DNA from: Luteibacter sp. 9135
GTDB taxonomy: Bacteria > Pseudomonadota > Gammaproteobacteria > Xanthomonadales > Rhodanobacteraceae
Assembly (NCBI RefSeq): GCF_000745005.1
Contig: NZ_JQNB01000001.1
Location: forward strand, 2,659,501-2,723,500
DNA: 64,000 nucleotides
Reading direction: 5' to 3'
Every line of letters begins with the position of its first letter. Within the stretch, counting starts at the first letter, position 1. A program made the position numbers and the translations under genes. A model generated the notes under the pieces. The model had not been told where the DNA came from. It made no database searches and saw only the letters and a program-made list of their open reading frames with translations. This document shows positions 33,360 through 47,319 of this stretch, in pieces.

Positions 33360-34214
33360 TCAGTCGTGGGGTCGCGCACCGACCCAGCGGCCGAGGCGCT
33401 GCCCGACCATGACCTGCTGTTGGGGCTGTAGGTCGTCCAGGGCGTAGCCCTCGGGAAGGAGCAGGATGACGGTGGAGCCCATGTTGAACCGGGCCATTTC
33501 GCCGAAGCGCTCCAGGGCCACGCCGCGCCCGCGACAGTCCTTGCGGATGATGGACGAGGCATAGGGTGGGATGGCCATGCCGTCCCAGACGGTGGCCACG
33601 CTGGAGACCAGGATCGCCCCGACCATCACCGAGACGAACGGCCCGTGTTCGCCGTCGAAATGGCAGACCAGGCGCTCGTTGCGGGCGAAAAGGCGCGGGA
33701 TGTCCTGCACCGCGAATGGTGCGACGCTGAAGATCCGGCCCGGCACGTGGGTGGTGCCGGTAAGGGTGCCGGCCAGCGGCATGTGCACGCGGTGGTAATC
33801 GCGCGGCGAGAGGTAAACCGTGACGAAGCTGCCATTGCGGAAAGGTACGGCGGCGGCGTCGTCGCCCAGCAGCTCGGCGGCGGTGTATTCCTGGCCCTTG
33901 GCCTGGAAGATACGGCCGTCACGAATCCGGCCGGACTGGCTGATTCGGCCGTCGGCCGGGCACAGCAGGGTCGTGGGATCGTCGTCCGGGCGGCGCGCGC
34001 CCGGTTTCAGCTTGCGGGTGAAGAACGCATTGAAGTGCTGGTAGGCCAGCGGGTCCGGCTGCGCGGCCTGGCTCATGTCCACGTCGTAGCGCTGGACGAT
34101 CTCCCGGATGAGGAAGTTCTTCCAGGGCGCCCATGCCCAGCGCGTCGCCCAATAGACGATCCGCGAGAGGAACCGGTGCGGGAGGATGTACTGCAGCAGG
34201 ACCTTTGGCTTCAT
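33360..34214 (-). CDS. psd: Phosphatidylserine decarboxylase proenzyme
   Basis: Makes phosphatidylethanolamine from phosphatidylserine at the inner membrane. The 284 residues match the proenzyme length. The self-cleavage site is MGST ([13 protein letters not shown]), where Ser becomes the pyruvoyl group; the canonical LGST has Met here, which is usual in relatives. The charge-relay stretch [11 protein letters not shown] is present. It lies 44 bases after the secreted-hydrolase gene on the same strand and could be read from that operon or its own promoter. Confidence 0.95.
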
Positions 34215-34258: not shown

Positions 34259-36202
34259 CTACTTCACCACCGGCAGCTCCAGCCAGGTGCCGTCGGCGCC
34301 GCCGCGGAACACCTTTTGCGTAGCCTTTTTATAGTCGCCCGGCTTCGCATTGAAGATATTCGGCACGAACGTCTGCGGGTTGCGGTCGTACAGCGGAAAC
34401 CAGCTGGACTGGACCTGCACCATCACGCGGTGCCCGGGCAGGAAGACGTGGTTCACCGTGGGCAGCGGAAAGCGATAGGCCTGGGCCTTGCCTGGTACCA
34501 GGGCTTTCGCGGTGGCGTAGCCCTCGCGGTAGCGCCCGCGGAAGATCTCCATGGCCACCGGCAACTGGTAGCCACCCATGGACGGTTCCGCTTCCACCTC
34601 GTCCGGGTAGACGTCGATCAGCTTCACCACCCAGTCGCTGTCGGTGCCGCTGGTGGAAGCGAGCAGGTGGACCAGGGGCTCGCCAGCGATGCCCATCGGC
34701 TGGGTCAGCACCGGCGACACGTAGGTCAGCACATCGGTGCGCGTGGCGAACTGACGCTGGTCGTCCACCAGCCATTCGGGCCAGCTGTCTTCACGGTCGG
34801 CCACGCCGTGCGACCACGACTGGATGGGACGCATGCGGTACGGCACCGGCTTCGCCGGATCGGACACATAGGCGTCCTCGCCCGTCGCGGGTGCCGTCGT
34901 GCCAAACGTGCCGTCCGCGCCCACGAACCAGCGTTGCATCGTCGGCGCGCAGCCCGTGCGGCAAGCGGACGGCCAGGTGTCCAGCTGGCGCCAGGTGTTC
35001 GCGCCGGTGACGAAGGCGTTGACCGGTGCGATGTCCGCGCGCGGCGCATCATCCTTCAGGTAGCGGGCGAGGAACGGTCGCAGGATCGTCTGGCGAAACG
35101 TGGTGGCCGTGTTGCTGCCCAGGTCGATCGCACCGATGGTGTTGCCCTTCTCCCAGGTCTTGGCGTGGCGCCAGGGACCCAGCACGAGCCAAAGTTTCTC
35201 GTGGTTCGGGTCGCGCGGGGCCAGCGCCCGGTACACGGCCATGTCGCCGTAATTGTCTTCCTGGTCCCACAGGCTGTGCACGAGCATGGTCGGCACGGTC
35301 ATGGGCTCGTTCGCTGCGACCTTGTCCAGCGCCTGGTCCGACCAGAAGCTGTCGTAGGCGGGGTGCGCCAGGATCTTCTGCCAGAACCCCAGGGCTTCCA
35401 TGCCGTAGGCACGGCCGATGTCGCCGGCGGAGCCGCCCTTGAGATAAAGGTCGTAGTCGTCGCGGTAGCCGGTGCTCCAGCCGATGTCGCTGCCGCGCGA
35501 GTTCACCATGCCGTAGATGTAGGGAATCATCTGCTGGCGGAACGCGCCGCGATGGAACCAGTCGTCGCCCATCCAGCCGTCGATCATCGGGTTGATCGGC
35601 ACGGCCACCTTGAGGGCGGGATGGGGGCGGATGGTGGCGACCATCGCCTCGAAACCGTCGTAGGAGATGCCGATGATGCCGACCTTGCCGTTGGACTCCG
35701 GCACGTGCTTCACCAGCCAGTCGATCGTGTCGTAGATGTCGGACGATTCGTCGATGGCGGTGGGGTTGCCGTGGCCGATCGGCGGCCGGTTCATGACGAA
35801 GTCGCCTTCCGAACCGTGCTTGCCGCGAATGTCCTGGATCACGCGGATATAGCCGTCCTGCACCACGACGTCGGCCGGGTTGTCGTAGCCGCGCAGGGTG
35901 CTGTCCAGGTGGGGGCTGTCGTTGCGGTGGCCCATGCCGTCCGCGCCGTAGGGCGTGCGCGTGAGCAGGATGCCGGCATGCGTGCTTCCTTTGGGCACCA
36001 GGATCACGGTGTGCAGTTTCACACCGTCGCGCATGGGAATCTCGACGGTGCGGCGCACGTAGTCGAAACCGGTGTCGGTGGGAACGAAGTGTGCCGGCGT
36101 TTCGGTCGGCAGGGGAGTGTCCGGGGCCGTGTCGCCGAACGCCGGGGTCGCGAGGACCCCGGCGGCCAGTGCGACGATGGCCAGTCGCAGGAGTGGATGC
36201 AT
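34259..36202 (-). CDS. Secreted CocE/NonD hydrolase, alpha-amino-acid ester hydrolase-like
   Basis: A 647-residue secreted alpha/beta-hydrolase (signal cut about after AFG, residue 23) with an X-Pro dipeptidyl-peptidase C-terminal jelly roll. The nucleophile is S180 in GISYDGFEA. The acid lies in LWDQEDNYG and the His in GPWRHAKTW. The block [19 protein letters not shown] closely resembles the beta-lactam-acting alpha-amino-acid ester hydrolases of Xanthomonas. Physiological substrates are probably amino-acid esters or small peptides. It lies 10 bases after the TonB-dependent receptor gene and is likely cotranscribed. Confidence 0.88.
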
Positions 36203-36212
36203 GGCGGTTCCG

Positions 36213-39200
36213 TCAGAAGTCGTAGGTGACGCCGAAACGTGCGTAGCGCGGCTGGGTGTAACCGATGACCTGCTGGTAGCCGTCGTTCACCGAGTTCTTG
36301 CTGCCCGACACCGGGTTGCTGCGCTGCGAGCGTTGCTGGTTCAGCGCGTTGAATACCGAGGCGGTGAAGGCCAGCTTGCGATCGGCCCATAGCGGACGGT
36401 ATTCGATGTTGACGTCGACCAGTTCCTCCCACGGCTCGCGACCCTTTGCGCCATACGCCGACGGCTCGCCGAAGCAGAAGTGGTAGTAGCTGCCGTAGCC
36501 GGACGGGTCGCTCTCGTCCGCACCGTAGCGGCCCAGGCAGGACTTCGGCAGGCCCGACTGGATCAGCAGGTTGGCCGAGACCATCCATTCCGGCGCGACC
36601 TGGTACGAGCCGTACAGCTTGATCTGGTGCTTGCGGTCGTTGGCGAGGTAGCCGTTGGCGTAGTTCATCAGCGTGGCGTAGTCCCAGTCACGCGAGGCGG
36701 CCACCGAACCCTGGCCCACATCCGAGCGCACCTGGCCTTCGGTGTTGCCGTAGCTGCGCGAATACAGGTAATCGACCTTGCCCGACCACGTGCCGTCGAA
36801 CGGATGCGACAGGTACAGGTCCAGCCCGTAGTAGTTGCGCTTGAGGTGCGGGAAGCCGAAGTCGGCGTTGGTCACGGTGACATCGGTGTAGCCGCCGCTG
36901 GCCTTGGCCAGCTGGTAGACGTTGGCCCGGCCCGGATTGGACAGGTAGCAGCTGCCTACCGTCACTGCGTCGATGTCCGCCCCCTGGGCCACCGCAGCGC
37001 GCGTGATCGCACCGTTGTCGCACACGTCGTCCAGTGCGTTGCGCAGCTTGCGCACCGTGGCCTTCGCGCCGGCCACCCAACTGGGATCGAGCTGCTTGTC
37101 CAGGCCGAGGATGTATTCGTCCTGGTACTCGGACTTGATGTTCTTCGCGCTGACCGTCTTCGGGTCGGGCGGCTGGCCGTATTCGCCGTTGGGCGATACC
37201 GCGCCGCCGGTGGCTGACTGCACGAAGGTGACCCCGGTGGGCAGGCCGCCGGCGTCGATACCCGTATAGGTGAAGTACTGGTTGGTGGCCAGCGACCCGG
37301 ACGAGGTGCGCAGCGCGACCGAGGCGGGCATGGCCAGGAAATAGCGTCCCGCGTTGCCGTACACCTTCATGCTCGAGTCGCCATTCACGTCCCAGCTGAA
37401 GCCGAGGCGCGGCGCCCACTGCGGCTTGGTGAGCTTCAGGTACGGCTGCCCGGCGGGGTTGTAGTTGGTGAACTGGTCGTTGCGCAGGCCCAGCGAGAGC
37501 AACAGGCGGTCGGTGACCTGCCAGTCGTCCATGACGTATTGCGCGCGCTGCTTCACGCGCACCGAGGCCAGCGTGTTGTAGTGCCGGTAATACCCGTAGT
37601 AACCCGTCTGGCCGCCGGGATAATTGGCCGGCTTGTCGACGAACGGGCTGTCGCTGATGTTGAGGTTGGGATCGCCCTTGGCATACCAAAGTTCGTAACC
37701 GTCGCCGCCGATGGTGGTGCCATCGTCGATGTCACGCGAGTCCTGGTTGTCGATGCCCGCGGTGATCGAGTGGTCGCCGGCCTTGTAGTTCAGGTCCACG
37801 CGCAGGTTGCGGTTGGTCGACTGGTGATCGGGGTTGTCCACCGTGTCCAGCGTCTGCCCGTTGCTGATCGGCGTGCCGCCGTTCAAGGCCGGGTTCTGCT
37901 GGCTGACGTTGCCCAGGAACGGGCCGGTGACGCCGGTGGCCGGCGGTTCGTTGTAGTAAGTCAGCTTCGACTTGCCGTACAGCGCGGTGAGGGTCAGGTT
38001 GTCGGTGATGTAGCTGGTGAACTTGGCCGAATAAACCATGGCGCGGGTCTTGTACGTCGAATCGGTGCTGGCGAAATCGCCCACCGTGTTCGTGTCGTAG
38101 TCATAATTGTACTTGTTGCCGTTGGAACGGTGGGTCTGGTTGACGCCGGTCAGCTCGAGGATATTGCTGTCGTTGATGTTCCAGTCCAGCTTGCCGTACC
38201 ACTTCGGGTCCTTGTACGTGTAACGGGTGTCGTAGGCGTGGTTGACGTCGCCGATGCTGTTGCCCTTGCTGCGCTGCATTTCCACCGCGGCGAAGGCGTA
38301 AAGCGTGTCCTTGATCAGGGGGCCGCCGGCATACGCGCTGACCGTGGTGCTCCACTCGTGGTTGTCGTCGTTGCGCTGGTTGATCGTGCCCGGTGGCGCG
38401 GGGTTGTCGTGGCCGTAGGTGATGTTGCGTGCGCTGGCGCGCGCGAAATCCGGCTCCCACAACACCTGCACACCGAAGTGCCATTCGTTGGTGCCGCGCT
38501 TGCCCACCTGGCTTATGACGCCGCCGTCCGAGCGGCCGTACATCGCCGAGTAGCCGCCGCTGAGTATTTCCTGCTGGTCCACCGCGCCATAGGGCAGGGT
38601 GACGCCGCCGAAGCCGCTGAGCGGGTCGGTGGTGTTCATGCCGTTGATGTAATACGCGTTCTCGGAGACCGCGGAACCCGCGAAGCTGACCAGACTGCCG
38701 CCGAACGCGTTCTGGAAACCGGAATAGCCGGGCGAGGCGCCCGGTGCCAGCAGGGCGATCGCCTCGGCCGAGCGCTGCAGCGGCAGGCGCGCCATGTCGG
38801 CCGCCGTGATCACGGTGCTGGAGGCGACGGTGGCGACGTCGATCTTCGCCACCTGCGTGGCCGAGACGGTTACCTGGTCGAGCTGCTGTGCCGAGGCCGA
38901 CGAGCCGGCGGACGCGAACGAGACATCGGTGGCTGCACCGACGCGCAGGGTGACGTTGTCACGCGAATCGATCACCTGGCCGTTGGCCTTGAGTGACACC
39001 TTGTACGTGGCCAGCGGCAGCGCCTCGGCGACATAACGGCCGCGCGGATCGACGGCCACCTCGCGGGTGAGGCCGTTGCTGCCTTCGATCAGCACGGTTT
39101 CCCCGGCGGCGACCGGCGCGCTGCCAGCGATGCGGCCGGTGGTGGCCTGGCCGTAGGCCACGCCGGTGAGCGAAGCCGCGACGGCGGCACATAACAGGCT

Positions 39201-39227
39201 GCGTCGAAGATAAGGACGGGGAATCAT
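36213..39227 (-). CDS. TonB-dependent receptor with carboxypeptidase-regulatory-like N-terminus
   Basis: Outer-membrane active transporter of 1004 residues. It has a signal peptide (to about AYGQA) and a CarboxypepD_reg-like domain (about 30-110). A plug domain follows with the TonB-box candidate LDQVTVSA and the NGMNTTDPLSGFG region, then a long barrel ending in Phe (GVTYDF). It is of the Oar-like class that takes up large or peptide-linked substrates. It lies between a DeoR-family regulator and a secreted hydrolase, suggesting uptake of the hydrolase products or of a phosphate ester. The ligand is unknown. Confidence 0.9.
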   Translation of the reverse strand: MIPRPYLRRSLLCAAVAASLTGVAYGQATTGRIAGSAPVAAGETVLIEGSNGLTREVAVDPRGRYVAEALPLATYKVSLKANGQVIDSRDNVTLRVGAATDVSFASAGSSASAQQLDQVTVSATQVAKIDVATVASSTVITAADMARLPLQRSAEAIALLAPGASPGYSGFQNAFGGSLVSFAGSAVSENAYYINGMNTTDPLSGFGGVTLPYGAVDQQEILSGGYSAMYGRSDGGVISQVGKRGTNEWHFGVQVLWEPDFARASARNITYGHDNPAPPGTINQRNDDNHEWSTTVSAYAGGPLIKDTLYAFAAVEMQRSKGNSIGDVNHAYDTRYTYKDPKWYGKLDWNINDSNILELTGVNQTHRSNGNKYNYDYDTNTVGDFASTDSTYKTRAMVYSAKFTSYITDNLTLTALYGKSKLTYYNEPPATGVTGPFLGNVSQQNPALNGGTPISNGQTLDTVDNPDHQSTNRNLRVDLNYKAGDHSITAGIDNQDSRDIDDGTTIGGDGYELWYAKGDPNLNISDSPFVDKPANYPGGQTGYYGYYRHYNTLASVRVKQRAQYVMDDWQVTDRLLLSLGLRNDQFTNYNPAGQPYLKLTKPQWAPRLGFSWDVNGDSSMKVYGNAGRYFLAMPASVALRTSSGSLATNQYFTYTGIDAGGLPTGVTFVQSATGGAVSPNGEYGQPPDPKTVSAKNIKSEYQDEYILGLDKQLDPSWVAGAKATVRKLRNALDDVCDNGAITRAAVAQGADIDAVTVGSCYLSNPGRANVYQLAKASGGYTDVTVTNADFGFPHLKRNYYGLDLYLSHPFDGTWSGKVDYLYSRSYGNTEGQVRSDVGQGSVAASRDWDYATLMNYANGYLANDRKHQIKLYGSYQVAPEWMVSANLLIQSGLPKSCLGRYGADESDPSGYGSYYHFCFGEPSAYGAKGREPWEELVDVNIEYRPLWADRKLAFTASVFNALNQQRSQRSNPVSGSKNSVNDGYQQVIGYTQPRYARFGVTYDF

Positions 39228-39293
39228 GGGTTGCTCCGGGAAGGACAGATAAGGACAAGGGTGGGTCGGCCGTCCTGGCGCATGGTTTTCGGG

Positions 39294-40049
39294 TCAGGCA
39301 TAGGCGATATCGCCGACGGCTTTGCCGAGGGCGGCGATACCGCGGGATTTTTCCGCGCGCCGGTCGGTGACCAGCAGGTCGATGCGATCCGCGGGGCACC
39401 AGGCGACGCGACTGCGCACGCCGATCTTGGAATGGTCGGCGGCAATGACGATGCGTCGCGCGTTCGCGCACATGGCGCGTGCGATCTCGGCTTCTTCCAT
39501 CTCGAAACTGCTGGCGCCCGCCTTGGCATCGATGCCCACCGGCGAGAGGATCACCATGTGCGGCTGGTAGCGCCCGATCTCGGCGATGGTGCCCGAGCCG
39601 TTGGTGCAGCCGATCTGCGCATCGAAGCGTCCGCCCAGCAGGTGCACGTCGTTCCCGGGACGCGAGGCGAAGCGCGCGGCCACGTCCACCGCGTTGGTGA
39701 CGATGGTGAGCCCGGTACGGGTGGCCAGCGCTTCGGCCACCAGGTTCATCGTGCTGCCGGCGTCCATGAAGATGGTCTGTCCGCTCTCGACCAGGCTGGC
39801 CACCTTCCGCGCGATGGCGCGTTTTTCGCGAACGCGGGTGGCGTGGCGCACGGCGATCGGCGGTTCGTCGCCGGTGAGCACGGCACCGCCGTGTACGCGA
39901 CGGATCTCGCCGCGGGCGGCCAGTTCGACCAGGTCGCGGCGGATCGTCTCGCGCGACACGCCCAGCTCGGTCACGATGCGCTCGACGGATACCTGGCCGC
40001 TGGTGCTGAGCAGGTCACGGATACGGGTGTGTCGTTCTTCATGCCACAT
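39294..40049 (-). CDS. DeoR-family transcriptional regulator
   Basis: A 251-residue regulator with an N-terminal DeoR winged HTH (RIRDLLSTSGQVSVERIVTELGVSRETIRRDLVEL) and a C-terminal sugar-isomerase-like sensor domain with the DAGSTM and GG(R/V) loops that bind phosphorylated ligands. DeoR-family effectors are usually phosphorylated small molecules, which fits the organophosphate genes around it. Its start overlaps the permease stop by 11 bases, so it is translated in the same operon and probably autoregulates it. Confidence 0.9.
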   Translation of the reverse strand: MWHEERHTRIRDLLSTSGQVSVERIVTELGVSRETIRRDLVELAARGEIRRVHGGAVLTGDEPPIAVRHATRVREKRAIARKVASLVESGQTIFMDAGSTMNLVAEALATRTGLTIVTNAVDVAARFASRPGNDVHLLGGRFDAQIGCTNGSGTIAEIGRYQPHMVILSPVGIDAKAGASSFEMEEAEIARAMCANARRIVIAADHSKIGVRSRVAWCPADRIDLLVTDRRAEKSRGIAALGKAVGDIAYA

Positions 40050-41670
40050 GGCGTCGGTCCCTGAGTGTGTGGAGGAGAAGGCGCATGGCGCCGAGTGCGA
40101 GGCCGCCGGCGGCCACCACGCATGTCGCGTAGGCAGCGGCCGGGGCGAGGAAGCCGTTTTCGTCCAGGCGCATCACCGACACCGAGGCCAGGCCCAGGTC
40201 GGCGGTCACCAGGAAGATCACGCCCGACAGCGTCACCATCGAGCGCATGAACAGGTAGAAGAACGCCGAGATCGCGGCTGGCGCCGCGAACGGCAGCACG
40301 GCGTCGCGCAGCACGTGGCGCGTATCGCCGCCGCACACGGCCACCGCATCTTCCAGGGCGTCGGGCACGCGGCGCATGCCCGTCTGCATCGTCAGGAAGG
40401 TGGGTGCGTGATAGTGGTAGAGGCTGCATGCCGCCACGATCGCCACGCTGCCGTACAGCCATGTCGACAGCACGCCATGGTTGAACGCCAGTACGTAGCC
40501 CAGGCCCAGCACCATGCCGGGAACGGCGGCGGGCAGGGCCGCCAGTACCTGCAGTGGGCGGGCCAGCCATCCGGGCAGGCGACGCAGGCCGGCCGACAGC
40601 ATGAACACGCCGACCACACCGACGGTCGCGGCGAGCAGCGACATGCCCACCGACGTCGCCACGGGTCCGTAGCCTTCCGGCATGCCGCCCAGGTAGTTGG
40701 CGAGGGTGAGCGTGCGATCGTACGGCCACAGCCTGACCACGCTCACGTACACCACCGTGCCCAGGGTAACGACGATCGACAGCGCCGCCAGCGCGGCAAC
40801 CCCGCCCAGGGCGGCGTCACGCCAGGGATGCCGTTCCGGCCGCAGCGCATGGCCGGGGCTGGCGTCGCCCAGGTCCTGCCGGCGTCGCGCCAGTCGTCCC
40901 AGCCACACCGACAACAGCGCCGGTGCCAGCAGCAGCATGCCCAGCGTGGCGCCCATGGCGAAATCGCGCTGGCCCACCACCTCGCTGTAGATCTCCATGG
41001 CCAGCACGCGGTAGTTGCCACCGACCACCACGGCGCTGCCGAAGTCGGTCAGCGTCTCGGTGAAGACCAGGAAGGCGGCGGCCCAGAGGGCGAAGCGAAT
41101 CCGCGGCAGGGTCACGTCGACGAACTGCCGCCAGGGCGTGGCACCCATCGACGCCGCGGCGTCGTAATGACGTGCGGGCGTGCGTTCCAGCGCGGCCGAG
41201 ACGATCACGACCACCTGCGGCAGGCCATACATCAGGTTGGCCAGCAGCAGGCCCCAGAAACCGTAGATATCGGTGGGCCAGCCGGTCAGCCGATGCACGA
41301 GGCCGTTGCGTCCCAGCAGGCAGACCAGGCCGAGGCCGAGCACCAGCGAGGGCGCCAGCATGGGCAGCAGCAGCGCGCCGCGGATCAGCACCTTGCCGGG
41401 CAGGCGCGAGCGGTGCAGGGCCATCGCCACGCACAGGCCGATGGCGAGGGTGCCCAAGGTGGTGGTCGCGCCGATGACCACGCTGTGCCATGCCGCACGC
41501 GGCAGGCCGGGGTCGTCCAGCAGCCGGGCGTAGTTGTCCAGCGTGAGCGTGCCCCCGTCGTCCACGAGGCTGCGCATCAACACGCTCAGCAAGGGATGCA
41601 GGAAGAACACGCACAGGCCCAGCAACGGCAGCGCCACCATCGGCAGGCCGGGCAGCAGCGAACGCTTCAT
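40039..41670 (-). CDS. Fused two-domain ABC permease, 2-aminoethylphosphonate type
   Basis: Inner-membrane permease of 543 residues with about 12 helices arranged as two homologous permease halves in one chain. Each half has an EAA-type loop (DAAASMGATPWRQFVDVTLP and DAVAVCGGDTRHVLRDAVLP). This fused layout resembles the 'putative 2-aminoethylphosphonate' PhnU2-type and iron FbpB-type permeases. The ATG at 41670 overlaps the ATPase stop (ATGA); a longer frame upstream shadows the ATPase. Confidence 0.85.
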   Translation of the reverse strand: MKRSLLPGLPMVALPLLGLCVFFLHPLLSVLMRSLVDDGGTLTLDNYARLLDDPGLPRAAWHSVVIGATTTLGTLAIGLCVAMALHRSRLPGKVLIRGALLLPMLAPSLVLGLGLVCLLGRNGLVHRLTGWPTDIYGFWGLLLANLMYGLPQVVVIVSAALERTPARHYDAAASMGATPWRQFVDVTLPRIRFALWAAAFLVFTETLTDFGSAVVVGGNYRVLAMEIYSEVVGQRDFAMGATLGMLLLAPALLSVWLGRLARRRQDLGDASPGHALRPERHPWRDAALGGVAALAALSIVVTLGTVVYVSVVRLWPYDRTLTLANYLGGMPEGYGPVATSVGMSLLAATVGVVGVFMLSAGLRRLPGWLARPLQVLAALPAAVPGMVLGLGYVLAFNHGVLSTWLYGSVAIVAACSLYHYHAPTFLTMQTGMRRVPDALEDAVAVCGGDTRHVLRDAVLPFAAPAAISAFFYLFMRSMVTLSGVIFLVTADLGLASVSVMRLDENGFLAPAAAYATCVVAAGGLALGAMRLLLHTLRDRRHVA

Positions 41671-42668
41671 GTCGTCACCCAGGCGCCGCGCGATACATCG
41701 ACGGTCACGGCCTCGCCTTGCGCCAGCGTGCTGCGGCCCGACAGTTCGGTGAGCAGCGAGCGACCGCGCCAGGCGACGCGGGCGTGCGCGAGGCTGCCCA
41801 GGAAGGTCAGTTCCTCGACCACGCCTTCGCCGTGCGGGTCGGCGGCGATCGTGAGGTCTTCCGGGCGCACGCACAGCTCGAACGTGGCATCCGCGCCGGG
41901 CGGCCGTCGTTCGAGGAAGGCGGGCAGGGCGTCCCGCACCAGATCCGTCGGCAGCAGGTTGGCCTTGCCGATGAAGCCGGCGACGAAGCGCGTGCGCGGC
42001 CGCTCGTAGAGGCATCGCGGCGAGCCGACCTGTTCCACGCGCCCTTCGTTCATGCAGACCACGGTGTCGGCCATGGACAAGGCCTCGTCCTGGTCGTGGG
42101 TGACCATGAGCGTCGGAATACCCAGCGATCGCTGCAATGAACGGATCTCCGCACGCAACTGCGCACGGATGGCCGGATCCAGCGCCGACAGCGGCTCGTC
42201 CAGCAGCAGCATGGCCGGGTCGCTGGCCAGGGCGCGTGCCAGGGCGACGCGCTGCTGTTGTCCGCCGGACAACTGATCGGGAAAACGCGCGTGCAGGTCG
42301 CCCATGCCGACGCGGGCCAGCAGGTCGCTCGTGCGCGCGGCGATCGCGGCGTGGCTCTCGCGACGCAGGCGCATCGGGTACCCGATGTTGGCTGCGACGG
42401 TCATGTCGGGAAACAGCGAGTACGACTGGAACACCAGGCCCATGCGTCGATCGCGTGGCGGCAGCGCGGTGATGTCCCGGTCGCCCAGGATCACGCGCCC
42501 GCGGTCGGGCGGCGTGAGGCCGGCGACGATGCGCAGCAGGGTCGTCTTGCCGCAGCCGCTGGGGCCGAGCAGGCAGACCAGGTCGCTTTCGCCGGCCTGG
42601 AAGGACACGCCGTCGAGCACGGTGTGACCGCTCCAAGCCTTGGTTATGTCGTCGATGCGAAGGTGCAT
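41667..42668 (-). CDS. ABC transporter ATPase, 2-aminoethylphosphonate/spermidine type
   Basis: Cytoplasmic ATPase of 333 residues. It shows Walker A GPSGCGKTT, Q-loop VFQSYSLFPDMT, signature LSGGQQQRV and Walker B MLLLDEPLSALD, then a C-terminal TOBE regulatory domain (about 240-333, CVRPEDLTI). The type matches PhnT/PotA/FbpC importers. The ATG at 42668 gives MHLRIDDITKAW; an upstream extension overlaps the binding-protein gene and is rejected. It is coupled to the permease gene. Confidence 0.9.
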   Translation of the reverse strand: MHLRIDDITKAWSGHTVLDGVSFQAGESDLVCLLGPSGCGKTTLLRIVAGLTPPDRGRVILGDRDITALPPRDRRMGLVFQSYSLFPDMTVAANIGYPMRLRRESHAAIAARTSDLLARVGMGDLHARFPDQLSGGQQQRVALARALASDPAMLLLDEPLSALDPAIRAQLRAEIRSLQRSLGIPTLMVTHDQDEALSMADTVVCMNEGRVEQVGSPRCLYERPRTRFVAGFIGKANLLPTDLVRDALPAFLERRPPGADATFELCVRPEDLTIAADPHGEGVVEELTFLGSLAHARVAWRGRSLLTELSGRSTLAQGEAVTVDVSRGAWVTT

Positions 42669-42696
42669 GGTCCCCTGGTCTCCGATGGCCGCGGCG

Positions 42697-43698
42697 TCAG
42701 CGCGTCGATCGTTTGTAGCGGTCGATGAGCGCGGCGCGTTCGCGCGCCGCGCCGGCGAAGTCACGTGCGGGCAGGGTGGCGACGACGTCGGCCGGCAGGC
42801 CCTGCCGTTGCTGTTCGGCACTGGGCACGCTGCCGGGTGCGGCCACGATTTCCTTGAAGCCGCGATAGAGGGCGGCCGCTTGCGGGGATGCCGTCCAGTC
42901 GAGGAACCGGCGTGCCTCCGCCGCGTGCGCGGAACCTTTCATCAGCGCCGAACCTTCCAGTTCGTAACCCGCGCCGTCGGCCGGGATCACCATGGTGATC
43001 GGATAGCCCTGGCGGATGGACTGCATGGCGGAAAAGGCGAACGAGATACCGATGGGAAATTCACCGATGCGCGCCAGCTTGCAGGGCGCGGAGCCGGATA
43101 GCGTGACCTGCCCGACGTTGCGAGCGATGGCCGTCACCAGCACCATGCCGCGGGCATCGCGCCCCGCGTCGGTGAGTGAGGACAGCACCATGTAACCCGT
43201 GCCGGAGGATGCCGGATCGGGCATGGCGACCTGGCCGCGGTAACGGGGCGATGCCAGGTCGCGCCAGGTACGCGGCATGGGCAGGCCGCGCTCGGCCAGT
43301 GCTTCCCGGTTGACGCACAGCGCCGCGAGATAGCCGGTAGGGGCGAACCAGGTGTTGTCCGCTCCACGAAAACGTGCGGGCATGGCGTCGATGTGCTCGC
43401 CATGGACCGGCGTCAGCAGCGGGGCGATGCGCGGATCGAGCAGGTCGGTCACGGCCATGCCCCAGATCGCGTCGTTGCGTGGTTGTGCGGATTCCGCCAG
43501 CAGGCGTGCGGCAAGATCGCCGCTGGAAAGACGCAGCACATGGATGTCCAGATCCGGCAAGGCATGCCTGGCCGCATCCAGGTAGCTGGCTATCTCGTCG
43601 CTTTCCAGCGCGGAATACACGGTGACCTGGCCCGCCTGCGCCACGCCGCAGGCCATGCCCAGGGCGACTGTCATGGCAATGCTGCGGAATGGACGCAT
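42697..43698 (-). CDS. Periplasmic binding protein, 2-aminoethylphosphonate-like
   Basis: Type II periplasmic solute-binding protein of 333 residues with a signal peptide (cut about after AQA, residue 22). The mature start is QVTVYSALESDEIASYL. The ligand-loop motifs PASSGTGYMVL and SGSAPCKLARIGEFPIGISF match the PhnS2 group of organophosphonate binders, and the Ser/Thr-rich loops would hold a phosphonate or phosphate group. It is first in the minus-strand operon. The ATG at 43698 gives a proper signal peptide; the longer frame runs into the divergent gene. Confidence 0.85.
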   Translation of the reverse strand: MRPFRSIAMTVALGMACGVAQAGQVTVYSALESDEIASYLDAARHALPDLDIHVLRLSSGDLAARLLAESAQPRNDAIWGMAVTDLLDPRIAPLLTPVHGEHIDAMPARFRGADNTWFAPTGYLAALCVNREALAERGLPMPRTWRDLASPRYRGQVAMPDPASSGTGYMVLSSLTDAGRDARGMVLVTAIARNVGQVTLSGSAPCKLARIGEFPIGISFAFSAMQSIRQGYPITMVIPADGAGYELEGSALMKGSAHAAEARRFLDWTASPQAAALYRGFKEIVAAPGSVPSAEQQRQGLPADVVATLPARDFAGAARERAALIDRYKRSTR

Positions 43699-43738
43699 GG
43701 ATGGCCCTATGCTGTGCGCGGGTTGTCTTCCACCTGAG

Positions 43739-43753
43739 GGGGTACCATACCCC
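43739..43753. promoter_or_regulatory. Palindromic operator candidate in the divergent promoter
   Basis: GGGGTA-CCA-TACCCC is a perfect 6-3-6 palindrome. It lies 41 bases upstream of the binding-protein start and about 130 bases before the phosphatase start. A half-site-like GGGTATA follows at about 43770. It is a natural candidate for control of both divergent units by the linked DeoR-family protein. Confidence 0.5.
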
Positions 43754-43882
43754 ACCCATGTGGCATTTTGGGTATATTTGCAAAGCTGTGGTTTTACTTC
43801 CAGCAGAGAATTTTCGTTTTTGTCATCCCACCGAAACGTGTTGCCGCTAAGGGGCGCACGGCCAATCCCAGGAGTTCTGTCG

Positions 43883-44674
43883 ATGGAATCGTTGTCCGCC
43901 GCCGGGCGGAAGGAGTTCGAGGCATTCGCCACCGGCATCGCCGATAACGCCCGCGCGCTGTCGTTGCCGCGATTTCGTCGGCCCGTCGACGTCACCCTCA
44001 AGGGCGACATGAGCCCCGTGACCGCCGTGGACCGCGGCGTGGAATCGATGCTGCGCGAGCGCATCGAGCACGCCTGGCCCACCCATGGTTTGCTCGGTGA
44101 GGAATACGGCGCCACGCGCACGGACGCGGAATTCGTCTGGTCGATCGACCCGATCGACGGCACCCGCAGCTTCATCTCCGGCTGGCCGCTGTGGGGCACC
44201 CTGCTGGCGCTGCTGCATCGGGGCCGCCCCGTCATGGGCCTGCTCGACATGCCCGCCCTGGACGAACGCTGGATCGGTCACGTGGGGGTCGGTACCACCA
44301 TGAACGGGCGGCCATGCCGCACCACGGGCTGCGAGGCCCTGGCCGATGCCACGCTCTACACCACCACGCCGGACATGTTCGACGCGGCGGAGTGGGCACG
44401 CTTCGATCGCACCAGCCGTGCGGCCTATAGCCGTCGCTTCGGCGGTGATTGCTACGGCTACGGCATGCTGGCCTCCGGGCATATCGATGCCGTGATCGAG
44501 GCGAACCTCATGCCGTACGACTACCTGGCCATCGCGCCGGTGGTGCAGGCGGCCGGTGGGGTCATGACCGACTGGGAAGGCCGCGACCTGGGCCTCGACA
44601 GCGGTGGCCGCGTCGTCGCCGCAGCCACGCCTGCCCTGCACCGGGCGATCATCGCTTCACTGCAACAGGACTGA
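43883..44674 (+). CDS. HisN-type inositol-monophosphatase-family phosphatase
   Basis: Mg-dependent phosphatase of 263 residues. Metal motifs are EEYG, DPIDGTRSF and the late Asp in MPYDYLAIAPVVQAAGG. The last motif is the PYD form typical of histidinol-phosphate phosphatase HisN rather than the WDxAA of inositol phosphatases. The ATG at 43883 gives MESLSAAGRKEF; an upstream frame enters the divergent promoter. It is the first gene of the plus-strand pair with the phospholipase and may remove phosphate from an imported ester. The substrate is not proven. Confidence 0.85.
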   Translation: MESLSAAGRKEFEAFATGIADNARALSLPRFRRPVDVTLKGDMSPVTAVDRGVESMLRERIEHAWPTHGLLGEEYGATRTDAEFVWSIDPIDGTRSFISGWPLWGTLLALLHRGRPVMGLLDMPALDERWIGHVGVGTTMNGRPCRTTGCEALADATLYTTTPDMFDAAEWARFDRTSRAAYSRRFGGDCYGYGMLASGHIDAVIEANLMPYDYLAIAPVVQAAGGVMTDWEGRDLGLDSGGRVVAAATPALHRAIIASLQQD

Positions 44675-44679
44675 CCTGC

Positions 44680-46830
44680 ATGGTCTCGCGCGATCGTCGC
44701 CGTTTCCTCCAGGCTACCGGCACCAGCGTCGTCGCCTCGCTGGTGGCGCAGGGGTTCCCGGCTGCGATCGCACGCGCGCTTGCCACGGCGCCCGATCGAC
44801 GCACGGGCAGCATCGCCGACGTCGAGCACGTAGTCATCCTCATGCAGGAAAACCGCTCGTTCGATCACTATTTCGGTAGCCTGCGTGGGGTGCGTGGGTT
44901 TGGCGACACGCGCGTGCTGGAGTTGGGCAACGGCGATCCGGTTTGGAAGCAACCGGTGGCCACGTCGCACACCAGGGTATGGAAGCCGCGTGGATTGGCC
45001 GACGACGTGGCCTGGGTCTATCCCTTCCACCTGGATACCCGTGCCAGCGGCGACCATCACGAAGGCACGGATCATGGGTGGAGCACCGGACACGGCGCCT
45101 GGAACCTGGGCCGCAACGATCGCTGGATCGAGCAGAAGCAGGATGTGCTGACCATGGCCTACCTGCGTCGTGAGGACGCCGCATTCCACTATGCGTTGGC
45201 CGACGCGTTCACCGTGTGCGATGCGTACCACGCCTCCGCGCTGGGCGACACCGCGATCAACCGCATCTACCTGTGGAGCGGCTCGTGCGATCCGTCGGGG
45301 CGCCTGGGGCGCAAGTCGAACGGCCCGGGTACCGAAGAACGTGCGGACACCAACGGATATACGTGGACGACCTACCCCGAACGCCTGGAGAAAGCGGGCA
45401 TCCGCTGGCGCGTCTACCAGGGCGGCACGGGCGAGCCGGGTTCGCCCACCGACAATTACACCGACAACTCGCTGGAGTTCTTCGCCGCCTACCAGGTGAA
45501 GGAGGGCGCGGACCCGCACGGCGCGCTGGTGCGCAACGGTGCCTCCACCCACACCTTGCGCGAACTGCGCGACGACGTGATCCACGGCCGGCTGCCGCAG
45601 GTCAGCTGGATCGTCGCGCCTTATCAATACAGCGAACATCCCACCTCATCCCCAGCCGACGGCGCGTTCTACATCCGCCGCGTGCTCGATGCACTCACCG
45701 TCAACCCGAAAGTGTGGTCGCGCACGGTGCTGTTCCTCAACTACGACGAGAACGACGGTTTCTTCGATCATGTGGTGCCGCCGGCGCCGCCGTTGCGCAG
45801 CGAGGAAAACGCGCAGGGCAGGGTGTCGGACGATCTGGTCGCCGGGCTCGACGACGAGATCATGGACCTGGATGCGCACCCGCGCATCTCCGCGCCCATC
45901 GTTCCCGGCAGCGATCCGCGCGGCCGGCAACCGGTCGGCCTGGGCAACCGCGTGCCGATGATCGTGGTGTCGCCGTGGACCCGCGGCGGTTGGGTGTGCT
46001 CGGAAACCTTCGACCACACCTCGGTGCTGCGCTTCCTCGAAAAACGCTTCGGCGTGGAGGAGCCGAACATTAGTGCGTGGCGTCGCTCGATCTGCGGCGA
46101 CCTGACCAGCGCCTTCGACTTCGCGGGCAAGGTCGACGAGCGCATGCCGACGCTGGGTGTGCCGGAAGGCTCCAACGGCAAGGCACCGATCCAGGTGCCG
46201 CGCACGCCGTCGATGCCGGTGCAGGAAGCCGGCACCCGCCCGTCGCGGGCGTTGGGTTATGCCTGGACTATTCAGCACACGCTGGATGGCGAAAGCAGCC
46301 GCATCGTCTTCGAGAACACCGGGCGCCTGGGCGCGGCCTTCCTCGTCTACGACGGTTTGCAGCGCGACGCGCCGCCGCGTCGCTACGCGGTGAGCGCGGG
46401 CACGCGCGTGGCGGATCGGTGGGACATGCCACACGCCGGCGATGCCTACGATCGCCGCATCCATGGCCCGCAGTCGTTTCTCGCACATCTTCGCGGATCG
46501 AGGCAGCACATGATCGAAGCGTCGGTGTCGGGCGTCGGCGGTGAGCGCCGGCTCGACGTGCACCTGAGCAACCGCGGGCGCCTGCCGGTCGAGGTTCGCG
46601 TGACGGAGCGATACGGTGGCGAGTCGGCGCATCGTGTCGTCGTCGAGCCGGGCAGTGAATCGACTTTTCCGCTGGAACTGGGTGCCAGCGCGGGGTGGTA
46701 CGACGTGAGGATCGATCTGCCCGACGCACCTCGATACCTGCGTCGGTTTGCCGGGCATCACGATGACGGAAAGCCGGCGACGAGCGATCCGGGCTACGGT
46801 GCAGCGCATCGACTAGCCGTTTCGCAATGA
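44680..46830 (+). CDS. Tat-exported phosphocholine-specific phospholipase C
   Basis: Secreted phosphoesterase of 716 residues that releases phosphocholine from lecithin-type lipids. The Tat signal is RDRRRFLQATG. Catalytic-domain motifs include MQENRSFDHYFGSLRGVRGF, the TSS/THxxL region (GASTHTLREL), NYDENDGFFDHV and TRGGWVCSETFDHTSVLRFLEKRFG. Two C-terminal DUF756 domains (about 540-630 and 640-710) follow. It lies 5 bases after the phosphatase and is cotranscribed with it. No choline-specific binding motif was verified. Confidence 0.92.
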   Translation: MVSRDRRRFLQATGTSVVASLVAQGFPAAIARALATAPDRRTGSIADVEHVVILMQENRSFDHYFGSLRGVRGFGDTRVLELGNGDPVWKQPVATSHTRVWKPRGLADDVAWVYPFHLDTRASGDHHEGTDHGWSTGHGAWNLGRNDRWIEQKQDVLTMAYLRREDAAFHYALADAFTVCDAYHASALGDTAINRIYLWSGSCDPSGRLGRKSNGPGTEERADTNGYTWTTYPERLEKAGIRWRVYQGGTGEPGSPTDNYTDNSLEFFAAYQVKEGADPHGALVRNGASTHTLRELRDDVIHGRLPQVSWIVAPYQYSEHPTSSPADGAFYIRRVLDALTVNPKVWSRTVLFLNYDENDGFFDHVVPPAPPLRSEENAQGRVSDDLVAGLDDEIMDLDAHPRISAPIVPGSDPRGRQPVGLGNRVPMIVVSPWTRGGWVCSETFDHTSVLRFLEKRFGVEEPNISAWRRSICGDLTSAFDFAGKVDERMPTLGVPEGSNGKAPIQVPRTPSMPVQEAGTRPSRALGYAWTIQHTLDGESSRIVFENTGRLGAAFLVYDGLQRDAPPRRYAVSAGTRVADRWDMPHAGDAYDRRIHGPQSFLAHLRGSRQHMIEASVSGVGGERRLDVHLSNRGRLPVEVRVTERYGGESAHRVVVEPGSESTFPLELGASAGWYDVRIDLPDAPRYLRRFAGHHDDGKPATSDPGYGAAHRLAVSQ

Positions 46831-46875
46831 TCAGCGATGACTGGAAGGGCTCGCCGTCATTGGCGGTCGTTTTCT

Positions 46876-47184
46876 CTGCGGAGAGGAGGCGTCGGGCGGT
46901 CACCCTCTGCGCTCGAGCAGCGGCCGCAAGCGGCCGAACTCGCTCAGAGGATGACCCCCCGACACCTCCCAGACGACTGAGGTTGCGGGTTGGGAAAGCA
47001 ACGCTCGCGGCGTCGCCGAAGAGGACTCTCCAGCGCCTACCACCCGAGGTCACCGACACCTTGCTCTCCATTCGGAGTACCTCTGTCGTCGCAGAGGTGG
47101 CGGGTGGTTACGCTCTGAGCGAGTTCGGCCGCTTGCGGCCGCTGCTCGAGCGCAGAGTGTAGCCACCCGGCGCCTCCTCGCCGC
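46876..47184. repeat. Large inverted repeat with 45-bp identical core
   Basis: Two arms (46876-46960 and 47099-47184) are inverted copies. Bases 46905-46949 and 47113-47157 are perfect complements over 45 bp, and flanks of about 20 bp on each side are imperfect. Each arm contains its own CGGCCG-CAAG-CGGCCG-like palindrome. The 138-base middle holds a smaller hairpin (ACCTCTG ... CAGAGGT, 47080-47098). It occupies most of the 524-base gap between the phospholipase gene and prmB, in which no gene is supported. Confidence 0.88.
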
Positions 47185-47319
47185 ACCCGTACGAACAACG
47201 GCGGTTCCCGGCGACGGACAAGCGACGGCACTAGCCCTCGTGCCTGGTACGCAGCTAGCCGGAGCGGGCGGCCCATGCCCGGCGAGCCCCGGTTGGAAGC
47301 GACCAGGGGCGCGGATGGC

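Follow-up and report, generated by a model that had tools for sequence, protein, structure and literature searches.

A conserved gene cluster of Luteibacter predicted to scavenge phosphoethanolamine under DeoR control

What does a bacterium take up with an ATP-binding cassette (ABC) importer whose relatives are named for 2-aminoethylphosphonate (2-AEP), when the genes facing it encode a secreted phospholipase C (PLC) and a HisN-type phosphatase? Here we consider a cluster of eight such genes in a 64-kb window (G000:C1:2659501-2723500, the whole stretch of DNA analysed) of the 4.49-Mb single-contig genome of a Luteibacter strain (Rhodanobacteraceae). A preliminary description had proposed a locus for scavenging organophosphates (phospholipid head groups), and had guessed at a phosphate ester such as phosphocholine or glycerophosphocholine. 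Our analysis supports the scavenging role and points to another head group: the cluster is probably a DeoR-controlled regulon for scavenging phosphoethanolamine, a ligand and a chemistry that we infer from sequence. The cluster joins known transporter and enzyme families in a new variant. The gene set had not been recognized as a described system, and among the matches listed in the open-licence literature we likewise found no paper on it or on a bacterial phosphoethanolamine importer, nor was the predicted pathway found in the literature searched.

Eight genes kept together in Rhodanobacteraceae

All the genes first reported are present, PLC and HisN facing the importer, regulator, receptor and hydrolase across a 184-bp gap. 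In window coordinates the features are as follows, the start codons of the permease and ATPase having been refined during locus comparison.

34259..36202, minus strand: CocE/NonD (S15-type) hydrolase with a signal-like N-terminus (TIGR00976, 231 bits; Pfam S15 and PepX_C)
36213..39227, minus strand: TonB-dependent receptor with a CarboxypepD_reg-like N-terminus (Pfam PF25183, Plug, TonB barrel)
39294..40049, minus strand: DeoR/GlpR-family regulator (Pfam HTH_DeoR and DeoRC sensor)
40039..41670, minus strand: PhnU2-like fused two-domain ABC permease (U2; TIGR03262, 424 bits, cut-off 593)
41667..42668, minus strand: PhnT2-like ABC ATPase with a TOBE domain (T2; TIGR03265, 372 bits, cut-off 458)
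42697..43698, minus strand: periplasmic binding protein of the PhnS2/AfuA superfamily (S2; TIGR03261, 261 bits, cut-off 393), a predicted phosphoethanolamine binder
43699..43882, no strand: divergent promoter region of 184 bp, the gap between S2 and HisN
43759..43784, plus strand: predicted DeoR operator TGTGGCATTTTGGGTATATTTGCAAA, with direct repeats of about 10 bp (TGTGG...), from conservation and a position weight matrix
43883..44674, plus strand: HisN/IMPase-type phosphatase (TIGR02067, 276.8 bits, cut-off 275.15)
44680..46830, plus strand: phosphocholine-type PLC with an RR (Tat-like) leader (TIGR03396, 805 bits, cut-off 580)

The cluster is real, and it is conserved. A search for S2 in 197 Rhodanobacteraceae genomes found it in 24, and in 22 of these it lies within the module: 19 genomes of Luteibacter (genus g1) and one each of genera g11, g12 and g22. 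Each of the 22 genomes has the full set of eight genes, which clearly contradicts the possibility, raised earlier, that they never co-occur elsewhere. Nine named S2 relatives are Luteibacter records (69-82% identity); the loci of named records (L025-L033) largely repeat the genomes of L034-L051 and were counted once. Of the 21 relatives, 19 (L052 and the 18 other Luteibacter loci) keep the genes in unbroken order and in the same orientation, and because this order is kept the cluster is not a chance arrangement. In the two remaining relatives single genes have moved or been inserted. Locus L053 (g12) has gained an extra TonB receptor, and its hydrolase (62.6% identity) lies in the adjoining stretch L188; in G011 (g11, locus L054) the hydrolase has moved to the far side of PLC and the TonB receptor (L185, 73.9% identity) to a place about 17 kb away from DeoR. 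The genes that flank the cluster in Luteibacter were not found beside the module in the non-Luteibacter loci, so the module behaves as a unit and not only as old synteny. In the Luteibacter genome G062, the old flanking genes (asd, aroC and prmB; psd) are found further out (L190, L191).

The minus-strand genes are tightly packed, given their gaps of 28 bp (S2-T2), 66 bp (DeoR-TonB receptor) and 10 bp (TonB receptor-CocE) and the overlaps of T2 with U2 and of U2 with DeoR; HisN and PLC are 5 bp apart. A sigma-70 consensus scan of 36000-47300 gave no promoter-like sites. Signal-like N-termini are present on S2, the TonB receptor, the CocE hydrolase and PLC, whose RR-type leader reads MVSRDRRRFLQ, and by eye HisN shows no signal peptide. 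In the Protein Data Bank (PDB), PLC matches the phospholipase C 9gy2 (4.1e-165), and HisN matches 4n81 and 5eq7. Both domains of the DeoR regulator exceed their Pfam gathering scores, and the protein falls under every NCBIfam equivalog cut-off listed; the CarboxypepD_reg match of the TonB receptor is under its gathering score.

The cluster is followed immediately downstream, at 33360-34214 of the window, by a gene that we take, from its sequence, to be psd, encoding the phosphatidylserine decarboxylase that makes phosphatidylethanolamine (PE). It lies further out in L191, and its position is possibly a coincidence. Two genomes of genus g17 carry S2 matches of 33-35% identity (L055:8756-9694 and L056:8634-9572) that were set aside, as they have no adjoining module genes and L055 forms a very long tree branch. 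These S2-like proteins apparently have no signal peptide, and to the eye their surroundings resemble a biosynthetic cluster (with aminotransferases, an oxidoreductase, a nucleoside-phosphorylase-like protein, HAD); the binding-protein fold is possibly used there inside the cell.

Clade and ligand pocket of the importer

The importer had been called PhnS2-T2-U2-type. Kinship with that family stands, and the family name does not: all three subunits miss their NCBIfam cut-offs by the margins given above, and on these scores the importer is a relative of PhnS2-T2-U2 and not the 2-AEP system itself. In the S2 tree, a branch with 100/99 support separates the cluster's binding protein from the PhnS2 clade that is linked to PhnW and PhnX. 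Within the PhnS2 clade, 10 of 20 loci have PhnX or PhnW beside the transporter, none has HisN and one has DeoR; five have a class-III enzyme that shares only 24-28% identity with the phospho-lyase relatives described below. Beside the loci of the cluster's own clade (the clade proper, or clade A), neither PhnX nor PhnW was found in the loci compared.

That no phosphonatase is present, as first noted, holds for the locus. Genome-wide, PhnW exceeds its cut-off (401 bits) in none of the 22 module-bearing Rhodanobacteraceae, PhnX not having been searched at that scale. The Luteibacter genome of the window has no PhnW match, the best in the genus scores 20 bits and the best of the 22 (G054) 65 bits. 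Sub-cut-off matches, such as the one of 140 bits in G210, also occurred in all 14 control genomes. Only one of the 24 genomes searched, G561, has PhnW over the cut-off, and it has a separate PhnS2, also over cut-off, beside PhnW and PhnX. PhnS2, PhnT2 and PhnU2 are nevertheless the nearest NCBIfam models, and 2-AEP is an isostere of phosphoethanolamine, which makes cross-binding possible. Against 2-AEP as the cargo stand the missed cut-offs, the well-supported branch, the PhnW counts and the separate PhnS2 of G561, and we consider it very improbable. The earlier preference for a phosphate ester over 2-AEP is supported.

The pocket of S2 was mapped by alignment to AfuA onto published contacts (PMC4546632; PMC8427247). 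The phosphate cradle of AfuA is kept: Ser37 corresponds to S59, Ser148-Gly149-Thr150 to S165-G166-T167 and Ser184-Gly185 to S201-G202. Among the sugar contacts, His205/Asp206 are replaced by F222/S223, and only Glu229 is kept, as E246. The His-Asp pair is present in 6/6 AfuA-like rows and 0/22 clade-A rows, the latter including near-copies and excluding L055 and five side-branch rows that are reported apart. The PhnS2 clade has Arg at position 223 in 16 of 20 rows and Trp at 245 in all 20; in clade A these positions are mostly occupied by a small residue and by Tyr or Phe, respectively. Since the cradle is kept and the sugar contacts are replaced, the ligand of S2 likely bears a phosphate and is unlikely to be a hexose phosphate.

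Two other cargoes are to be weighed here. The first is a sugar phosphate or glycerol phosphate, imported by an AfuABC-like system and hydrolysed by an IMPase-type sugar phosphatase. The two best PDB matches of S2, 8x1a (1e-30) and AfuA 4r72 (6.5e-27), are of AfuA type by the residues that the alignments show, DeoR proteins often sense sugar phosphates, three AfuA-like loci also have an IMPase-type gene, and the modules of Sagittula and Roseinatronobacter adjoin glycerol-3-phosphate dehydrogenase genes. This cargo would, however, leave EutBC and the phospho-lyase relatives of homologous modules unexplained and runs against the distribution of the His-Asp pair; we regard it as quite improbable. 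The three loci just mentioned (L082, L084 and L085, in three Gammaproteobacteria) encode AfuA-type importers with the His-Asp-Glu motif and are possibly sugar-phosphate modules in their own right. The second is ferric iron or another non-phosphate cargo, bound in the manner of FbpA: iron binders are known from SBP_bac_6 and related families, and the deposited entry 8x1a bears the name of an iron(III)-binding protein. Yet AfuA 4r72 also bears an iron name and has been shown to bind sugar phosphates (PMC4546632), further iron-named chains after AfuA and P5PA reach only 3e-08 and weaker, the Ser-Gly-Thr cradle is kept, and the enzymes encoded alongside are either phosphatases or relatives of phospho-lyase. 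To iron or another non-phosphate cargo we attach almost no probability. Among the transporters named by similarity for 2-AEP or iron there is hence a clade for which another cargo is predicted, and metagenomic counts of phosphonate-cycling genes would be affected.

Homologous modules and the fate of the cargo

Further contexts were picked by S2 similarity alone. S2 was found in 12 of 369 genomes at class level (1e-25), 19 of 299 at order level and 39 of 398 at phylum level (1e-60); at phylum level 16 of 43 matches were examined, and three others lie in G000 and G561, already covered. A plasmid search matched 246 records, of which 14 of the best 16 were examined, H4 and H12 standing also for H5 and H11, their presumed near-copies. 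With near-copies counted once, the clade proper comprises 11 lineages: Luteibacter, L052, L053, L054, L074, L075, Azospirillum, Klebsiella/Enterobacter, Roseinatronobacter (L159), Sagittula and Shinella (L163).

The transporter and a DeoR gene are present in all 11 lineages, and HisN in nine (in L163 under the family cut-off). The two without HisN, L075 in G561 and the Klebsiella/Enterobacter plasmids, are exactly those with a phospho-lyase relative, a class-III pyridoxal-phosphate enzyme whose best PDB match is human ethanolamine-phosphate phospho-lyase, 6tor (2e-105 for L075, 9.6e-102 for L158). The phospholyase 5g4i follows at 1.9e-92 and 4.4e-94, and other class-III enzymes do no better than 1e-54 and 3e-53, respectively; the copies in L164 and L170 are 74% identical to that of L075. 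Two of the nine HisN lineages also have EutBC next door. In four Azospirillum plasmids EutC-EutB-HisN is divergent from S2-T2-U2-DeoR (EutB, EutC and HisN all being over cut-off in L157), and in L054 the order PLC-HisN/S2-T2-U2-DeoR is followed by EutB and EutC, both over cut-off. It is because EutBC and phospho-lyase relatives accompany the homologous modules that we favor phosphoethanolamine, the O-phospho analogue of 2-AEP, over the phosphocholine or glycerophosphocholine of the preliminary description. The plasmids of L158, L164 and L170 were typed as conjugative and belong to Klebsiella and Enterobacter sampled from human urine or sputum; they carry the whole module of transporter, DeoR and phospho-lyase-like genes with an MFS gene.

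The import of phosphocholine, freed by PLC and cleaved by HisN to choline and phosphate, is unlikely by comparison. PLC does exceed the cut-off of a phosphocholine-specific family, and Luteibacter has neither EutB nor a close phospho-lyase, so its own importer could have drifted. On the other hand, the catabolic genes linked to homologous modules are ethanolamine-specific, the annotations listed for the plasmid loci include no gene for choline oxidation (none was searched for in Luteibacter), and L054, of the same family, has PLC together with EutBC.

Within Luteibacter, the transporter and DeoR stand together with a phosphatase, a putative phosphoethanolamine-consuming enzyme. EutB occurs in 4 of the 197 family genomes, G011 included (the other three have no S2), and in none of the 19 Luteibacter. 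With the phospho-lyase as query, a class-III enzyme was matched in 24 of 24 genomes; the best Luteibacter matches are only 29-32% identical, and we take them to be ordinary aminotransferases. In the absence of EutB and of a close phospho-lyase, Luteibacter probably uses phosphoethanolamine for its phosphate. HisN, which exceeds its family cut-off narrowly, is predicted to be the cytoplasmic phosphoethanolamine phosphatase. The HisB N-terminal phosphatase domain is over its cut-off in all 22 Rhodanobacteraceae, the genome of the window included (in G011 only just, 140.8 against 140), which makes HisN dispensable for histidine there; HisB is not over cut-off in G210 or G561. Histidinol phosphate was considered as a cargo and ruled out by the presence of HisB together with the ethanolamine-linked genes.

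Some relatives differ. Three side-branch loci (L160, L162 and L166) have a HAD phosphatase and a distant DeoR (32-34% identity), and in L140 and L141 the neighbourhood search found neither HisN nor DeoR. All five keep the phosphate cradle and have Arg at 223 like most PhnS2-clade members, while the 100/99 branch places them with the clade proper. In three non-Luteibacter genera, glycosidases surround the module (L053, L186, L188, L054, L189): GH20, a GH2-type mannosidase, GH125, GH92, GH31 and GH35 in g12; GH125 and GH92, which follow EutBC in line, in g11; and GH3, GH35 and an alpha-galactosidase in g22.

Operator, proposed route and known systems

The divergent regions of the 19 Luteibacter share TGTGKCRWTTTGGGTATATTTGCAAA, and the operator at 43759..43784 is near-identical in all 19. 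A 26-bp matrix built from six sites (the window, L036, L052, L053, L054 and L074) scores it at 36.3 bits, the next best place in the window reaching 7.9. Scanning 1,416,513 bases on both strands gave 28 matches of at least 17 bits, a threshold chosen after the scores had been seen. Twenty-two are S2 promoters of Rhodanobacteraceae loci (five training sites, the rest mostly near-copies), one is the training site at L074, two lie at non-training loci (Shinella L163, 20.3 bits; Roseinatronobacter L159, 19.7 bits) and one is a stray in the PhnS2-clade locus L153. The last two are both in G011, before the displaced hydrolase (L054:14657-14682, 30 bp upstream of the open reading frame start) and the displaced TonB receptor (L185:1926-1951, about 150 bp upstream of the gene). 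As the element precedes both displaced genes, the TonB receptor and CocE hydrolase probably belong to the DeoR regulon. In Sagittula (L161) the locus-best site, at 13.3 bits, falls in the divergent region, above a shuffle maximum of 10.7. In a second test, for three TGTGG units 10-11 bp apart in 21 loci, the promoter was the sole locus maximum in four of the 11 clade-proper loci (L075, L163, L053, L074) and tied for it in four (L054, L157, L159, L161); it reached the maximum in 0/3 side-branch and 0/7 PhnS2-clade loci. These patterns suggest that DeoR binds the direct-repeat element.

Three further observations concern this element. Downstream of the operator, a second block (AATTTTCGTTTTTGTCAT...GAAACG, 43809-43838) is nearly as conserved in the 19 Luteibacter and is perhaps a promoter or another regulator's site. 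At L140:8876-8901, an operator-like site upstream of S2 is locus-best at 15.6 bits (shuffle maximum 14.9), in a locus where no DeoR gene was found. In G011, a secreted-looking protein of more than 540 residues with no Pfam match (L185:2-1646) is divergent from the operator-bearing TonB receptor and is a possible further regulon member.

PE is among the most abundant bacterial phospholipids. In the route that we propose, secreted PLC would cut PE, and probably phosphatidylcholine too, outside the inner membrane and free the phosphorylated head group. S2 would take phosphoethanolamine by its phosphate and amine, the ABC importer would carry the intact molecule in, and HisN, in the cytoplasm, would split it into ethanolamine and phosphate by hydrolysis. 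DeoR, a putative repressor like GlpR or DeoR, probably senses the phosphorylated ligand (phosphoethanolamine itself) and, once bound to it, would leave the repeats of the divergent promoter. The TonB receptor and S15 hydrolase probably handle a larger ethanolamine-phosphate-bearing substrate or lipid remains. A wider reading, which we hold in even balance, is that of a new mobile module importing intact phosphoethanolamine, spread over several proteobacterial orders and conjugative plasmids, with interchangeable ends (phosphatase; phosphatase and EutBC; phospho-lyase) to which Rhodanobacteraceae add PLC, the TonB receptor and the S15 hydrolase. Its place among mannosidases or other glycosidases in three genera would fit a diet of eukaryotic surface glycoconjugates with ethanolamine phosphate (such as GPI-type anchors) besides phospholipid, which is why glycoconjugates are included in this reading.

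Several points weigh against phosphoethanolamine scavenging. The top PDB match of S2 carries an iron name, and an AlphaFold2 model of S2 (ten Luteibacter rows) reached only pLDDT 39.8, so the pocket is read from the sequence alignment. PLC belongs to a family named phosphocholine-specific and is seen beside the transporter only in Rhodanobacteraceae. Neither EutB nor a close phospho-lyase explains the fate of ethanolamine in Luteibacter. The clade is rare, occurring in 1 of 145 genomes of G561's order and 1 of 101 of its family (G561 itself in each case), and G210's order comprised a single genome in the search. The five side-branch loci, with their different pocket, may bind another cargo. 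Moreover, the operator is less clear in some lineages: the Azospirillum promoter site is locus-best at shuffle level (10.6 bits; shuffle maxima 11.6 for L157 and 9.4 for L165), those of Klebsiella (8.1 bits) and G561 (8.4 bits) rank third and below shuffles, and in the repeat test the promoter falls one match below the locus maximum in L158, L052 and L034.

Related routes are known, and phosphoethanolamine scavenging as proposed here differs from each. The PlcH/PlcN route of Pseudomonas shares a secreted PLC of the same family; there, a periplasmic HAD enzyme, phosphorylcholine phosphatase, removes the phosphate from the released phosphocholine.

The 2-AEP importers of PhnS2-T2-U2, AepX and AepS type (PMC8316502) are alike in their three parts, fused permease, binding-protein superfamily and isosteric ligands (phosphonate and phosphate ester). 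In contrast, the importer described here forms a separate clade under the family cut-offs, with no PhnW over cut-off, an adjoining DeoR gene, and linkage to a phosphatase, EutBC or a phospho-lyase relative; class-III lyases and phosphonate enzymes are treated in PMC8154272 and PMC10590968. The AfuABC hexose-phosphate importer (PMC4546632) and P5PA (PMC8427247) share the Ser/Gly/Thr cradle, Glu229 and the import of an intact phosphomonoester, which is predicted here, and differ in His205/Asp206, here replaced by Phe and a small residue.

Closest in cargo is the head-group use of Phaeobacter through PhoX and EtoX/BetT, in which phosphoethanolamine likewise serves as a phosphorus source and ethanolamine is released (PMC10132767). 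In a table of that paper, a GlpR-type regulator (MED193_11439) is raised on phosphoethanolamine and not on phosphocholine or without phosphorus, and its tag lies near those of transporter genes annotated as PotA/PotD (MED193_11419, MED193_11424); from the tag numbers we would guess that MED193_11419-11439 is the same module. Transport of the intact head group, a route that had been proposed, is left open there (PMC10132767), and the module supplies candidates for the importer, regulator, operator and enzymes of such a route. Whereas Phaeobacter removes the phosphate outside the cell and takes up free ethanolamine (PMC10132767), in Luteibacter the intact ester is predicted to enter the cell.

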